The position numbers were made by a program, and so were the translations under genes. The notes under the pieces are model-generated. The model was not told the origin of the DNA. It ran no database searches and saw only the letters and a program-made list of their open reading frames with translations. From contig NZ_JAMZFY010000001.1 in the NCBI RefSeq assembly GCF_025457605.1, forward strand, positions 1,488,001 to 1,552,000: a stretch of 64,000 bases of DNA, read 5' to 3'. Below are positions 10,082-24,877 of this stretch, in pieces. Source of the DNA: Haloarcula laminariae (GTDB taxonomy: Archaea; Halobacteriota; Halobacteria; Halobacteriales; Haloarculaceae). How positions within the stretch are numbered: position 1 is the first letter of the stretch; every line of letters begins with the position of its first letter.

Positions 10082-11038
10082 ATGCGTGCAATCCGATTCC
10101 ACAACCACGGAGGACCGGACGTACTGACGCTTGAGGAGGTAGATACGCCAGAACCCGGCCCTGGTGAGGTCCGTATTGATGCCGAGGCCATTGGGGTCAA
10201 CCCCGTTGACACCTACTTCCGCGAGGGCGAGTATCCTGTTCCCGACCGGCCCTTCGTTCCGGGGTCGGACGTGGCCGGGACGGTCGCAGCCGTCGGCCAG
10301 GGCGTTACCGACCTCTCGGTCGGCGATCGAGTGTACGCCACAGGCCTTGGTAACGGTCGACCGGGGACGTACGCCGAGTCCTGTATTGCGCCCGCCGACT
10401 TCGTCGCGCCGCTCCCCGAGAGCGTCTCTGAGGTAGACGGAGCAGCGCTGTCGCTCGTCGGCATGACGGCGTGGCAGGTGTTCGTCCACCACGCCGGCGT
10501 CGAACCGGCCGAGACGGTCCTCGTCCACGGTGGGAGTGGCGGTGTTGGCCACGTCGCTGTCCAACTCGCCAAGACGATGGGCGCCCGCGTTGTGACGACC
10601 GCCAGCGAGACGTACCACGACCGCCTGGCCGACCTCGGGGCCGACGTGACCATCGACTACCATGCCGACGACCTCGAAGAACGTATCGTCGCAGCGGGGG
10701 AACCCGCGGTAATCCTCGACACATTCATCGACGAGTACCTCCAGACGAACGCGAACGTCGCTGCACAGAACGCACGGATTGTCGGTATCGGTAACCGCAC
10801 CGAGCAGGCGTCGTTCGACGCCATTGGCGCGGCGAAAGGGAAGGAACTCTCCTACCAGTTCATGACGATGTACAACACCCAGGACAAGCATGAGGTCCTG
10901 TCGCGTCTCGCGGCGCTTGCCGATCGCGGCGAGGTGCTGCCGGAAGTCCACCGGACCTACGACCTCGCCGACGCCGCAGACGCACAGCGCGCTGTGATGG
11001 ACGAGAGTTTCCTCGGAAAATTGGTTCTCGAACCCTGA
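10082..11038 (+). CDS. NADPH:quinone oxidoreductase family protein (zinc-independent MDR)
   Basis: 318 residues. N-terminal GroES-like domain (MRAIRFHNHGGPDVL, GVNPVDTYFREG, VPGSDVAGTV) and a Rossmann domain with the dinucleotide loop VHGGSGGVGHVAVQLAK near residues 155-170. The structural zinc cysteines of alcohol dehydrogenases are absent, as in quinone oxidoreductases. It would reduce quinones or enones with NADPH in the cytosol, a detoxification role. The gene is GC-rich with normal codon use although it sits among relics and accessory genes. Substrate is not predictable. Confidence 0.88.
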   Translation: MRAIRFHNHGGPDVLTLEEVDTPEPGPGEVRIDAEAIGVNPVDTYFREGEYPVPDRPFVPGSDVAGTVAAVGQGVTDLSVGDRVYATGLGNGRPGTYAESCIAPADFVAPLPESVSEVDGAALSLVGMTAWQVFVHHAGVEPAETVLVHGGSGGVGHVAVQLAKTMGARVVTTASETYHDRLADLGADVTIDYHADDLEERIVAAGEPAVILDTFIDEYLQTNANVAAQNARIVGIGNRTEQASFDAIGAAKGKELSYQFMTMYNTQDKHEVLSRLAALADRGEVLPEVHRTYDLADAADAQRAVMDESFLGKLVLEP

Positions 11039-19541: not shown

Positions 19542-20931
19542 CTAAGACTCACACCTCGGTTGCGTAGCGGTAGCGAGCGTATCCTGTAAGATCGGTCGTT
19601 GCTGGTGTATTTTCTGTGCGTCTTCGAACAGCCGCTCCAACAGCGGCGGTGGCGAGTAACCGAGATACTCACCGAGTTCGTGGAGGATGAGCTGGGCGTG
19701 CGACCGGAAGGTCGCCGCCCAGCGTTCCGGCGGAAACACGATCTCATTGTCGGCTTGCTCAGTGACCAGATCCAACAGGTCACGGCTCACCAACAGCGAC
19801 AGCAACGCCGCGTACAGCAGAATTTCCACGACAGCCGGGTTGCTCGTGTCGAACTCATCTAGTTCGTACTGCGTCTTCAGCTCACGGAACAACGTCTCTA
19901 CCTCCCACCGACACCGATACAGCGTTGCTAGATCCGACGGGAGAAACTCTTCTCTCGGCAGATTCGTGATGTACAGATGGTAGTCGTCGGCGTCCGAATC
20001 GCGGACGCCGACGACGCGGAATCGCTTCGTGTCCAGCGAGCGTGTTCCCTCGTACTGCCCTCGCTTAAACTCCGCTTCGACCTCCACGTCGATGTACTTC
20101 CGCGAGAGGTCATCGACCACATCCTGGATCTGCTCGCCTGCCAAGGGAATGGCGCGCCCGCGCCATTCCCGTAATTCCTCTGTTATCACCGGATTCGCGT
20201 TCTGCTTCAGCCGGCTGACGAAGTAGCCGTCGTTCTCGTCGATCAACGCGAAGCGGCGGTACTTGAAGTACGCTAAGTCGAACAGAACGAGCCGTCCGTG
20301 TAGCCACGAACCCGTCTTGAACAGCGTGCTGTCGTGTGTTTTCTCGTCAGTCACGTCGAAACGTTCAATCGTCCGGTCGGTGGCGTTGTGGAGCAGGTGG
20401 AGCTTCGCTCCAGCCTGCTCCTCGTGGCGTGCTTGGAACTCATCAGAGAGGAACTCGTGCAACCGCAGGACGGTTCCATCAGCGATCATTACGTCCCTGA
20501 ATCGGCCGATATCAGCGTCAACAGCGTCGGGAACAGCGACCTCGTCGAGACCGTACTCGACGAGGTCGCGGAGATACTCGGCGAGTAACGGCGTTAACCG
20601 GTGGTAGAAGCCGCCGGGAGAGATCGGTTCGTCGGCTGTCGAATTATAGCTGCGTCTGAAGCCAGCAAGTGTTCGGCTTTCGCCTGCGGCGAAGCCGAAC
20701 ACGAGCGCCCACACGAGGGCTGGAATCTGCAACTTACCCTCTCGCTCGACCACGCCGAGTTGCTCGGCGTGCTCTTCGAGGAACTCGGAGGGAAACAGTG
20801 TAGTGAGACGACGCATAATTCGGGATGAGGAGGCGTCTTGGTGCACACTTGCCGCCTCCTCGTTCCTCTCGAAAAGTAGCCTCGATAAGCCGCCGCTGTC
20901 ACGTGGTTCTTCTCTTAGCTAAAGACGGATG
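19529..20931. mobile_element. Complete ISH8-like insertion sequence (IS4 family), 1403 bp
   Basis: Left end CATTCGTCTTTAGCTAAGA (19529-19547) and right end, read inverted, CATCCGTCTTTAGCTAAGA (20913-20931) match at 18 of 19 positions. The 1403-bp length fits the ISH8 class (about 1.4 kb). One intact transposase fills the element on the minus strand. Expected 10-11-bp target duplications are absent: TGGCTATCGT precedes and AGTAAACACC follows. This suggests recombination or adjacent deletion after insertion. The left end truncates the membrane protein gene at 19041. Confidence 0.85.
19542..20846 (-). CDS. IS4-family (ISH8-type) transposase
   Basis: 434 residues, or 424 from the second Met (MRRLTTLFPSEF, 20816), which is the more usual family start. 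DDE features: Asp in VMIADGTVLRLHEF, Asp in RLVLFDLAYFKYRRF, and the YREK-type box YRCRWEVETLFRELKTQY carrying the catalytic Glu. No frameshift or stop, so the enzyme should be active. The last codons overlap the left inverted repeat region. Confidence 0.92.
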   Translation of the reverse strand: MHQDASSSRIMRRLTTLFPSEFLEEHAEQLGVVEREGKLQIPALVWALVFGFAAGESRTLAGFRRSYNSTADEPISPGGFYHRLTPLLAEYLRDLVEYGLDEVAVPDAVDADIGRFRDVMIADGTVLRLHEFLSDEFQARHEEQAGAKLHLLHNATDRTIERFDVTDEKTHDSTLFKTGSWLHGRLVLFDLAYFKYRRFALIDENDGYFVSRLKQNANPVITEELREWRGRAIPLAGEQIQDVVDDLSRKYIDVEVEAEFKRGQYEGTRSLDTKRFRVVGVRDSDADDYHLYITNLPREEFLPSDLATLYRCRWEVETLFRELKTQYELDEFDTSNPAVVEILLYAALLSLLVSRDLLDLVTEQADNEIVFPPERWAATFRSHAQLILHELGEYLGYSPPPLLERLFEDAQKIHQQRPILQDTLATATQPRCES

Positions 20932-22279: not shown

Positions 22280-23131
22280 CTATCTTCGGGAGTCCATAGA
22301 AGATGCACTTTCGTACTCCCACACCAAATCGAAGTACCGCTTCATACCGGCGACGAACGACCCGTTCTCCGTCAGGGCCGCCTGGCGCATGTGGTTTGGC
22401 ACGTCTGGTTCCTCGACCAGGAGAATCGCCTCGCCGCCGTCGTAGTCCATGCTCGGGTCGACGAGCGTCCCCCGCCACGGCAGTTTCTCCGTGCTGAATC
22501 GAATGCCGACGTCCGGCAGCTCCGACGCCAGCCGCTCGACCATCTCAGCCTGGACCGCCGCCTTCTCCGCCGGTAACGCGTCGGGATGGAGAAAGAGCAC
22601 CGACACGTCCACGCCGCGCTCGACGGCCCCCTCCAGCGCCCCGATAACGCTGTCCAGATACGCGAAACTGTTCGTGATGATGCCGAGCGTCTCCTCGGCG
22701 TCGCCGTAGAGCCGGCGAGTCTCGCGCTCGCTCGGTTCGCCCACGTCGACGACGTGGAACAGCTCGGCTGTCGGGGAGATGTTCTCGCTGGCGCGCTCGA
22801 ACTGCGGGCCGTATTCCGACAGGAAGGCGTCCCGGCCGGCCTCGATGTCGGCCGCGAAGGCCTCGTAGGACTGGCGGCTGTTCTCGATGGCGCGGTCGAG
22901 TATCTCGTCGGGGGCCTTGGGCTGGTACTCCTTGGGGCGGCCGGGTATCACCTTGATGAACCCCCGGTCTGCGAGGGACTCCAGGACGCCGTAGATGCGG
23001 GCCTTGGGGATGCCCGTGGCTTCGGCGAGATTCGGCGCCGTGGTCCGGCCCAGCGTCAGCAGCTGCTCTATAGCCGTCGTCTCGTACTCGGTCAGCCCAA
23101 CGCGGTCGAACACGTCGGACGCTTCGGTCAT
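22280..23131 (-). CDS. TrmB-family transcriptional regulator
   Basis: 283 residues. N-terminal TrmB winged helix (VGLTEYETTAIEQLLTLGRT, NLAEATGIPKARIYGVLESL), a Lys/Pro loop KVIPGRPKEYQPKAP typical of the family, a coiled coil, then the PLD-like C-terminal part (ETRRLYGDAEETLGIITNSF). TrmB proteins sense sugars or related effectors. The divergent small gene at 23217 and this gene share an 85-base promoter region. Effector and regulon cannot be read. Confidence 0.85.
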   Translation of the reverse strand: MTEASDVFDRVGLTEYETTAIEQLLTLGRTTAPNLAEATGIPKARIYGVLESLADRGFIKVIPGRPKEYQPKAPDEILDRAIENSRQSYEAFAADIEAGRDAFLSEYGPQFERASENISPTAELFHVVDVGEPSERETRRLYGDAEETLGIITNSFAYLDSVIGALEGAVERGVDVSVLFLHPDALPAEKAAVQAEMVERLASELPDVGIRFSTEKLPWRGTLVDPSMDYDGGEAILLVEEPDVPNHMRQAALTENGSFVAGMKRYFDLVWEYESASSMDSRR

Positions 23132-23216: not shown

Positions 23217-23333
23217 GTGAGTAACCAGCAATCCGAAGCCCGCGAGCGCGACGACGCACACCTGCAGGACGTCGACGACGGCTGTGGCTGTGTCGAAGTG
23301 TGGGAACACATGAGCGAGGACCGCGACGACTGA
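23217..23333 (+). CDS. 38-residue conserved-type haloarchaeal small protein (CGC motif)
   Basis: GTG start, 38 residues: acidic head, then DDGCGCVEVWEHMSEDRDD. The closely spaced CGC pair and the VEVWEHMSE tail recall a small haloarchaeal family whose members carry xGCxExWEHLSE. TATTTATC at 23182-23189 lies about 30 bases upstream, as expected for a leaderless message. Third positions are almost all G/C. Function unknown; two cysteines could bind metal or act in redox. It is too short for most gene finders. Confidence 0.6.
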   Translation: MSNQQSEARERDDAHLQDVDDGCGCVEVWEHMSEDRDD

Positions 23334-23449
23334 CCCCGGAACGTTCGGAGCGCTTTCTCTGCCCCCAGCGGCTGCGATGAATCGGACCCTGAGAGCTTTC
23401 GACTGCTCGCTAGGAATCGACGTAGTCTCAGTTTGCACTGCGATTACTT

Positions 23450-23772
23450 ACCGCCCGAAAGCCCTCGACTGCTCGCGGGCGCTGTGACGGATACCTCGCT
23501 TTGCTCGGTAGTGCCGACACAGCGCCCGCGACCAGCCTCGCCCTTTCAGTCCGCCAGGGACGACCCCGATAGCCTGCCTTTCCCCGGGTCGTGCGACGGC
23601 ACGCACTCCCGGCCACGAAGCCGTTTCATCGGCTGAGTCGGGGGAGGGAAGGCCAGCTCTGCCTGGCGGACTGGAAGGGCGAACGCGGTCGGCGCGGCTG
23701 CGCGGGCCCTATCCGAGCGCCGCGAGGATATCCCGCACAGCCGCGTCGAGCGGGTGAGGGCTTCCGGGGCTG
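23450..23772. repeat. Nested inverted-repeat element with cloverleaf-like layout
   Basis: Four nested pairings are visible. Outer: GCCCGAAAGCCCTC (23453-23466) with GAGGGCTTCCGGGGC (23756-23770). Left hairpin: CGCGGGCGCTGTG/CACAGCGCCCGCG (23474-23486/23518-23530), perfect. Central: CGCCCTTTCAGTCCGCCAGG (23539-23558) with its complement at 23662-23681, 19 of 20. Right hairpin: CGCGGCTGCGCGGG (23693-23706) with CCCGCACAGCCGCG (23732-23745), 13 of 14. No coding frame. Similar GAAAGCCC/CGACTGCTCGCGGGCG runs recur in haloarchaeal intergenic DNA as I recall it. It could be a mobile miniature element or a structured RNA. Confidence 0.7.
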
Positions 23773-23881
23773 AAGAGTGGCGGTGCGGTTACAGACTGTC
23801 GCTAGCGGGGTCGAGTAGTCGACGCTGAGTACACACCCTGGGACCCGCATTTATTTGAGTGCGCGTGGCAGACGTTCGACA

Positions 23882-24877
23882 ATGGCCGACCGAGACGACG
23901 TTTGCGTGTTGCTCCCAGCCTACAACGAGGCTGCGACCATCGAGTCTGTCGTCGAGGGGTTTCGCGGCGCGGGGTTCGAGAACGTCCTCGTCGTCGACGG
24001 CGGCAGCGCGGACGACACCTACGAACTCGCCGAGGCCGCCGGCGCACGCGTCGTCGAGCAGTCGGGCGAGGGGAAGGGACAGGCCGTCCGCGAGGCCGTT
24101 CGCCGGTATATCGAGGCGCCTTACGTGCTGATGGCCGACGCCGACGAGACCTACCGGGCCGAGGAGGCCGACCGGATGCTGGAACCGCTGTTCGACGGGC
24201 GGGCCGAACACGTCATCGGCGACCGCTTTGCCGACATGAAACCCGGCGCGATGACGCGGCTCAACCGGGTCGGCAACCGCATCATCAACGGCGCGTTCTC
24301 ACTCATCCACGGCCACGACTACGCCGACATACTCAGCGGCTATCGCGCGTTCACCCGCGAGTCGTTCCAGCGGCTCTCGCTGTCGTCCGAGGGGTTCGGC
24401 ATCGAGACGGAGATGGCCGTCGAGTGCGTCAAACACGGCGTCCGAACCGTCGTCGTTCCGATAACGTACCTGCCACGGCCCGACGAGTCCGAGACGAACC
24501 TCCGGCCGGTCCGGGACGGCGGACTGATACTCGTGACGCTGTACCGGATGGCCAAGACGAACAACCCCCTCTTTTACTTCGGTAGCGTCGGCATGTCGAC
24601 CATCGCCGTGGGGGCGGTGCTGGGTGTCTACGTCATCTACGACTGGTTCGTCAGGGGCGTCTCCCATGAGGTCATCGCCACGGTCGGCGGTATCGCCGTC
24701 GTGTTGGGAATTCAGTTGCTGATGTTCGGCGTCCTCTCCGACATGATCGTGACGGTGAGCCGGGAGCAGACACAGCAGCTCGAAAGCATCGCCAATCGTC
24801 TGAGCGAGGAGCGCCGGGCCGCCCGGAGCTCGGACGACGAGACGGACGCGCCGGCCCCGGAGAACCGGCAGAACTGA
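23882..24877 (+). CDS. aglJ: AglJ-like dolichyl-phosphate hexosyltransferase
   Basis: 331 residues from the ATG at 23882 (the frame back to 23855 adds nine unlikely codons). GT2 fold: VCVLLPAYNEAATIESVVEG, VVDGGSADDTYELA, the metal site ADADETYRAEEAD, GAMTRLNRVGNRIINGAF, DILSGYRAFTRESFQRL and ETEMAVECVKHG. Two C-terminal helices anchor it in the membrane. These signatures match AglJ, which adds the first hexose to dolichyl phosphate in haloarchaeal S-layer N-glycosylation. aglF lies about 21 kb away and no oligosaccharyltransferase is present here. Confidence 0.88.
   Translation: MADRDDVCVLLPAYNEAATIESVVEGFRGAGFENVLVVDGGSADDTYELAEAAGARVVEQSGEGKGQAVREAVRRYIEAPYVLMADADETYRAEEADRMLEPLFDGRAEHVIGDRFADMKPGAMTRLNRVGNRIINGAFSLIHGHDYADILSGYRAFTRESFQRLSLSSEGFGIETEMAVECVKHGVRTVVVPITYLPRPDESETNLRPVRDGGLILVTLYRMAKTNNPLFYFGSVGMSTIAVGAVLGVYVIYDWFVRGVSHEVIATVGGIAVVLGIQLLMFGVLSDMIVTVSREQTQQLESIANRLSEERRAARSSDDETDAPAPENRQN

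Follow-up and report, generated by a model that had tools for sequence, protein, structure and literature searches.

A strand-biased, covarying hairpin module, most likely an RNA, upstream of aglJ and on mobile elements of haloarchaea

Dispersed repeats that lack a transposase and carry palindromes are known in haloarchaea from the PATEs and SMR-A of Haloquadratum walsbyi, the latter measuring about 110 bp, with inverted ends but without duplication of the target (PMC3119063). In the accessible text of that paper, PATEs are defined by being related to IS605-type ends, and SMR-A by their having inserted into the palindromes of IS605 or PATE elements (PMC3119063). The module described here is likewise transposase-free, palindromic and dispersed in haloarchaea. 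However, neither kinship to IS605 ends nor insertion into IS605/PATE sequences was seen here, and the same accessible text reports no structural covariation for them (PMC3119063). Our search of the open literature returned no matching family, and this account of Haloquadratum mobile elements was the sole relevant paper.

IS6-family MITEs are a further likeness, as in Halovenus- and Halonotius-type genomes the module lies in elements of 206-390 bp with IS6-matching ends and 8-bp duplications. Here, however, the interior is a strongly covarying, strand-biased fold that is also found outside such elements, and the IS6 ends are missing from the copy upstream of aglJ. Bacterial REP units are about 35-40 nt long and have a conserved stem sequence. 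The haloarchaeal units resemble REP/BIME elements as dispersed intergenic hairpins, single or in inverted pairs, but they measure about 105-230 nt and their stems vary freely whereas their loops are fixed, which places them outside that class. Finally, a long form on plasmids recalls the large ornate bacterial RNAs GOLLD, ROOL and OLE in being a large, conserved, structured non-coding locus of mobile replicons, but it is archaeal, has no Rfam match and is a candidate RNA. The module probably represents an undescribed, partly mobile haloarchaeal RNA family, since its shape is kept while its letters change.

A double hairpin upstream of aglJ

The window, i.e., the whole stretch of 64,000 nucleotides (64 kb) from Haloarcula laminariae that was analysed, contains an imperfect palindrome of 315 bp at 23454-23768 that folds far beyond chance expectation. 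The initial annotation had claimed four nested pairings at this place, and all of them are present:

Outer pairing: CCCGAAAGCCCTC (23454-23466) with GAGGGCTTCCGGG (23756-23768), 12 of 13 paired
Left hairpin: GCGGGCGCTGTG (23475-23486) with CACAGCGCCCGC (23518-23529), 12 of 12 paired
Central pairing: 23538-23559 with 23661-23682, 20 of 22 paired
Right hairpin: GCGCGGCTGCGCGGG (23692-23706) with CCCGCACAGCCGCG (23732-23745)

That they lie far above chance was borne out as well. The plus strand of 23440-23790 has a minimum free energy (MFE) of -219.5 kcal/mol (z = -9.7; 0/100 shuffles equally low), and the element itself (-210.8) beats all 160 segments of 319 nt that were sampled from the 64 kb, which average -127 (sd 22) and reach -181 at the lowest. 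The minus-strand fold of 23454-23654 has a z of -4.1.

The element is composed of two diverged copies of one hairpin module of about 105 nt around a common central domain. It shares 68% identity with its own reverse complement, and it is an imperfect palindrome because one unit recurs in all four arms, its orientation alternating from arm to arm. The term cloverleaf used by the initial annotation suits the whole plus strand; in evolution, however, it is the half and not a four-way junction that forms the unit. The features of the locus are as follows:

23454-23559, sense on the minus strand: left hairpin module, type I, 5'-CCTGGCGGACTGAAAGGGCGAG...CGAGGGCTTTCGGG-3' (module alignment, covariation, strand bias, minus-strand fold)
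23662-23765, sense on the plus strand: right hairpin module, type I, 5'-CCTGGCGGACTGGAAGGGCGA...GAGGGCTTCC-3' (alignment, covariation, fold)
23572-23653, no strand: shared central (5') domain (folds of both strands, comparison with five other species)
23397-23476, no strand: left tail, a degenerate tandem copy of the module end with a 66-bp period
23766-23816, no strand: right tail (alignment with the second copy and relatives)
22280-23131, minus strand: TrmB-type transcriptional regulator, left flank (PF01978, E=1.3e-17)
23882-24877, plus strand: aglJ, S-layer glycoprotein N-glycosyltransferase, right flank (TIGR04182, E=1e-135)
23217-23333, plus strand: small ORF of 38 aa containing Cys, upstream of the element (read from sequence)

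In the sense direction one unit reads 5'-CCTGGYGGACTGAAAGGGCGAG-(long hairpin)-CGAGGGCTTTC-3'. The central domain forms a helix between GCCTGCCTTTCCCC (23572-23585) and GGGGGAGGGAAGGC (23640-23653), inside which hairpins lie near 23587-23606 and 23618-23634 (loop TTTCAT). It is nearly self-complementary and therefore usable by both divergent modules. A second partial copy, noted earlier near 23396-23413, proved real: 23372-23410 and 23438-23476 form a 66-bp direct repeat with 72% identity, and GACTGCTCGC occurs twice in the left tail (23401-23410 and 23467-23476). The right tail ends in CTAGCGGGGTCGAG, which repeats the 3' stem strand of the module in degenerate form, and in relatives 2-4 tandem copies of the module end, each of 60-66 bp, flank the element. 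A CRISPR-like reading of these flanking units was rejected, as the units duplicate the stem strand of the module itself and are identical in part; slippage explains them better.

The element is non-coding, with no ORF of at least 80 aa within it, and too short for a transposase. Palindromes lie near both its ends, no duplication was seen and the element itself is an inverted repeat. No T-rich tracts of the kind found in archaeal terminators were present in the sequence, and the Rfam 15 covariance models gave nothing credible for the element at gathering and relaxed thresholds. A tRNA or tmRNA reading was discarded since the sole tRNA call in the window falls elsewhere.

Copies in the genus, on IS6-type elements and on plasmids

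Searching the genome and its relatives for copies, as had been recommended, was productive. In the source genome (G000), the window element belongs to the aglJ locus of contig C1, which also holds a partial copy, and a second full copy lies on contig C2 (314597-314995, L002). Five further species of the genus carry the element. In three of them (G002, G008 and G010) it occupies two loci, one at aglJ and one with ThuA-like/MBL-fold neighbours; G025 has it at the latter and G007, whose genome is incomplete, at the former. Upstream of aglJ the element is retained in the sampled species of one clade. Most species of the genus lack it at the corresponding sites, and orthologous sites with the same gene neighbours are empty (L190, L196, L197, L198, L200 and L202; L221, L222, L226 and L227). 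These empty sites are too diverged for a base-exact comparison with the window copy. We infer that insertion, rather than loss, lies behind them; both full copies in the genus are old residents of two loci at which other species have none.

Within each genome with two copies (G000, G002, G008, G010), the unlinked copies share genome-specific insertions. The copies of G010 have in common an inserted hairpin of roughly 63 bp, those of G008 another centre and those of G000 GACGACCCCGATA. Most branches are weakly supported in trees of these 9-10 sequences, so homogenisation is argued from the shared insertions and not from tree support. The insertions point to gene conversion or a recent common source, and the homogenising process was probably gene conversion. 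The second copy in G008 (L057/L216; G008:C3 near 434100-434250) contains an N and a poly-C run inside the hairpin, likely an assembly failure at a strong fold, and draft genomes may contain damaged versions of such elements. A hairpin GGCCGGGAGCGCG-CTCCGT-CGCGCGACCCGGGGAAGGGCAGGC, which is like half of the element's centre, stands alone in many species of the genus (L042-L053), where it adjoins an apparent RNase P RNA gene.

More widely, the unit-start pattern was matched in 126 of the 391 sampled Halobacteria, with a maximum of 144 matches in one genome, and Halosimplex pelagicum R2 and Halovenus salina are among the high-copy species; the reversed pattern, used as control, gave near 0 matches in the same set. 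Beyond Halobacteria there were isolated two-mismatch matches alone, and the family is thus essentially confined to this class. Among 120 stretches examined from named genomes (Halosimplex, Halorussus, Halonotius, Halovenus, Haloparvum and others), the units were nearly always intergenic, in agreement with the initial annotation, which had linked the start of one arm to recurrent haloarchaeal intergenic DNA. Their orientation relative to genes is unbiased, which spoke against a 3'-UTR or terminator. The repeated part extends from about -200 to +35 around the module; similarity ends there and there is no ORF, which disposed of the idea that the repeat has an autonomous form containing a gene. 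Searches of viral contigs and phages gave no match to the module, and Rfam searches with the relatives and the plasmid form gave sub-threshold chance matches to miRNAs or none.

In Halovenus/Halonotius-type genomes, the elements that enclose the module have GGYRGTGTTCAGATAAG ends, and IS6-matching terminal repeats were found on copies in G407, G408, G409 and others. Perfect 8-bp target duplications flank the copies L246 (GCCTCCAG), L247 (CTCATCAA), L075 (GGTTATGC), L171 (CGGCCAGG) and L259. G407 also harbors an autonomous IS of 697 bp with the same ends and a TGTCACAC duplication, whose transposase belongs to the IS6 family (NF033587, E=4.9e-57). The leader of this IS (L252:1501-2197), GATTGAAAGGCGAGGCGGAGCG, resembles the start of the hairpin unit, GACTGAAAGGGCGAGGCG, a likeness that may be due to chance or to common origin. 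The IS6 end GTTCAGATAA is absent from 23300-23900 of the window and no target duplication was recognisable at the window copy. Therefore, lacking these ends, this copy is not readily classed as an IS6 MITE. Halosimplex copies have a different 5' domain and likewise no IS6-type ends; the module thus occurs in more than one kind of carrier. Target-site duplications, which had been suggested as a check, were accordingly found in other genera and not at the window copy. Of the two natures originally offered, a miniature mobile element or a structured RNA, both apply to the family, given the covariation described below and the IS6-type ends and duplications in other genera; for the window copy, mobility is indicated by the empty orthologous sites. 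An association with TnpB and omega-RNA was discarded, as by eye the single TnpB locus of the genome lacks the module and the TnpB genes near plasmid copies are not next to the fold and lie on the opposite strand.

The type II unit matches 75 haloarchaeal plasmid records, mostly with one copy per plasmid, and most of the rows listed have no feature annotated at the match. One such copy lies near 72006-72119 of plasmid PHS2 of Halobacterium salinarum R1. The long form, of about 300-560 nt, is present in 159 of 292 Halobacteria, including a 120-kb contig of the source genome. Many plasmids show a conserved order, in which a gene with a weak match to an Ssb-like OB fold or a TFIIB gene is followed by a structured intergenic region of about 560 nt, terminated by the unit, and then by an operon of small genes. 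The plasmid 5' domain alone has few compensatory changes and no sense bias, and the firm claim is therefore restricted to the 3' unit. In some plasmids cargo genes separate the 5' domain from the 3' unit and remnants overlap, an arrangement that resembles a recombination hot spot; the cargo includes an ATPase, a nucleotidyltransferase/DUF86 (MNT-HEPN-like) pair, TnpB and small ORFs (L272, L282, L283, L321, L322, L323). A separate small hairpin touches the start codon of the OB-fold gene (L274:4564-4582 and equivalents); it shows clear compensatory changes between plasmids, and its loop has Shine-Dalgarno-like letters on the strand of the gene.

Covariation, strand bias and their explanation

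The initial annotation had predicted that mismatches in the arms would covary if the element were an RNA, and among related copies covariation is indeed very strong and strand-biased. In the alignment of 44 type I units, 96.1% of cells are paired and 22 of 30 pairs have double compensatory changes; for 38 type II units the values are 95.9% and 20 of 28 pairs. The covariation score is 0.297 for type I, compared with 0.103 in shuffled and at most 0.053 in slid alignments, and 0.424 for type II (0.156 and at most 0.075, respectively); no shuffle in 500 reached the observed value for either type. Compensatory base changes thus exceed the controls, as in a structured non-coding RNA. At the base of the hairpin, GGCGA faces GAGGG in a fixed loop that is not Watson-Crick paired and includes tandem G.A; its non-complementary columns are almost invariant over genera and the stem letters vary. 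In the ungapped 12-bp outer stem of 114 modules, the sense strand has 51 G-U against 13 A-C pairs, and it folds better by 6.1 kcal/mol on average and in 106 of the 114 modules. At pairs predicted on both strands, the ratio of G-U to A-C is 32:16 for type I, 44:14 for type II and 31:3 for the plasmid copies. Since the stems covary, the loops are fixed and the G-U excess is one-stranded, selection acts on a single-stranded form. A DNA cruciform is disfavoured, because it would give no excess on one strand.

The selected single-stranded form is most likely RNA, which is the simplest such form, although the strand bias also fits single-stranded DNA. A strand-specific DNA hairpin, serving as a transfer origin, a single-strand origin or an attC-like transposon-end or recombination site and recognised in trans by a relaxase, an HUH enzyme or a tyrosine recombinase, is the strongest rival, even if we consider it unlikely. 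Folded single-stranded sites would account for strand bias and for structure without sequence conservation; the usual single copy per plasmid, the typing of many of these plasmids as MPF_T, the frequent proximity of the Ssb-like gene and the cargo genes described above point in the same direction. However, G.T wobbles in DNA are less favourable than G.U in RNA, several carrier plasmids have no MPF typing and no cognate recombinase or relaxase was found. Moreover, the best-documented spread is IS6-type transposition of double-stranded DNA, for which no internal hairpin is required.

Selection would be unnecessary if the element were an ordinary palindromic MITE whose stems are kept complementary by mutation processes such as template switching at quasi-palindromes or gene conversion within the palindrome. 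Its palindromic, non-coding nature, the IS6 ends and duplications in some genera and the terminal 60-66 bp tandem repeats, which fit replication slippage, are in keeping with this. Yet such processes would erase the non-complementary internal loops and would yield no G-U excess on one strand, and in many genera the plasmid locus keeps both its place and its sequence; we regard this explanation as improbable. Improbable too, in our view, is a cis-acting element of transcription or RNA processing, i.e., a terminator or insulator that shields aglJ, for example, and is hosted because it buffers read-through. The intergenic position, the folding of both strands and the retention upstream of aglJ in one clade would suit such a role, but convergent, tandem or divergent gene pairs are not preferred (35/28/24/19), the T-rich tracts of archaeal terminators are lacking and most species of the genus have no element at the same sites.

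Overall, the explanation towards which we lean as the best is a module of structured RNA carried along by plasmids and IS6 MITEs, with a divergent twin in the window. The window would then hold two divergent copies of the module with one 5' domain common to both. In each, CCUGGYGGACU would precede a long hairpin whose internal loops are fixed (tandem G.A, and GG/GG at the base), and selection on the folded single strand of one orientation would maintain the module, most likely as a non-coding RNA. Its spread would be passive: in some genera it would travel inside miniature elements mobilised by IS6, and in many it would ride on large plasmids as a near-single-copy locus. In the genus, the composite would have been inserted upstream of aglJ and between the ThuA-like and MBL-fold genes and would then have become resident, its two copies being homogenised per genome, probably by gene conversion. 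Transcription might occur by read-through or from a promoter in the carrier, and the putative sense RNA would end near GAGGGCUUUC; no consistent TATA box was found beside the modules. The 5' domains differ among genera, so a claim of one RNA of fixed length would go too far. It is tempting to guess that it is a selfish RNA tolerated by the host, or a plasmid-maintenance RNA, acting via a bound host protein. More tentatively, and with some doubt, it can be proposed that this is a hitherto undescribed family of large structured plasmid RNAs (about 300-560 nt, in over half of the sampled Halobacteria) whose 3' domain escaped to chromosomes as a selfish RNA module. There, IS6-type MITEs would have multiplied it beyond 100 copies per genome, and it would form self-complementary divergent twins such as the window element.

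If the selected form is RNA, an abundant structured haloarchaeal RNA family on large plasmids and transposable elements is missing from Rfam. Transposon cargo under selection for its RNA fold would be something rare, and the family would be the archaeal counterpart of the large ornate RNAs of bacterial mobile replicons. Even as single-stranded DNA, it would be a strand-specific site common to plasmids of many haloarchaeal genera, in which transfer and recombination are poorly understood. In addition, the homogenised pair of loci in one clade offers a natural assay of gene conversion.

Neighbouring features of the window

The 38-aa ORF bears a DGCGCVEVWEHMSE motif and is conserved both in members of the genus that have the element and in members that lack it; in L190, L197 and L200 it adjoins aglJ with no element in between. 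ARAGORN called a tRNA-Cys of 97 nt with anticodon aca at 10484-10580 (minus strand); length and anticodon are unusual, and the call is possibly an intron-containing tRNA or false. Near the element, an ORF of 434 aa (19542-20846, minus strand) appears transposase-like, as judged by its sequence.
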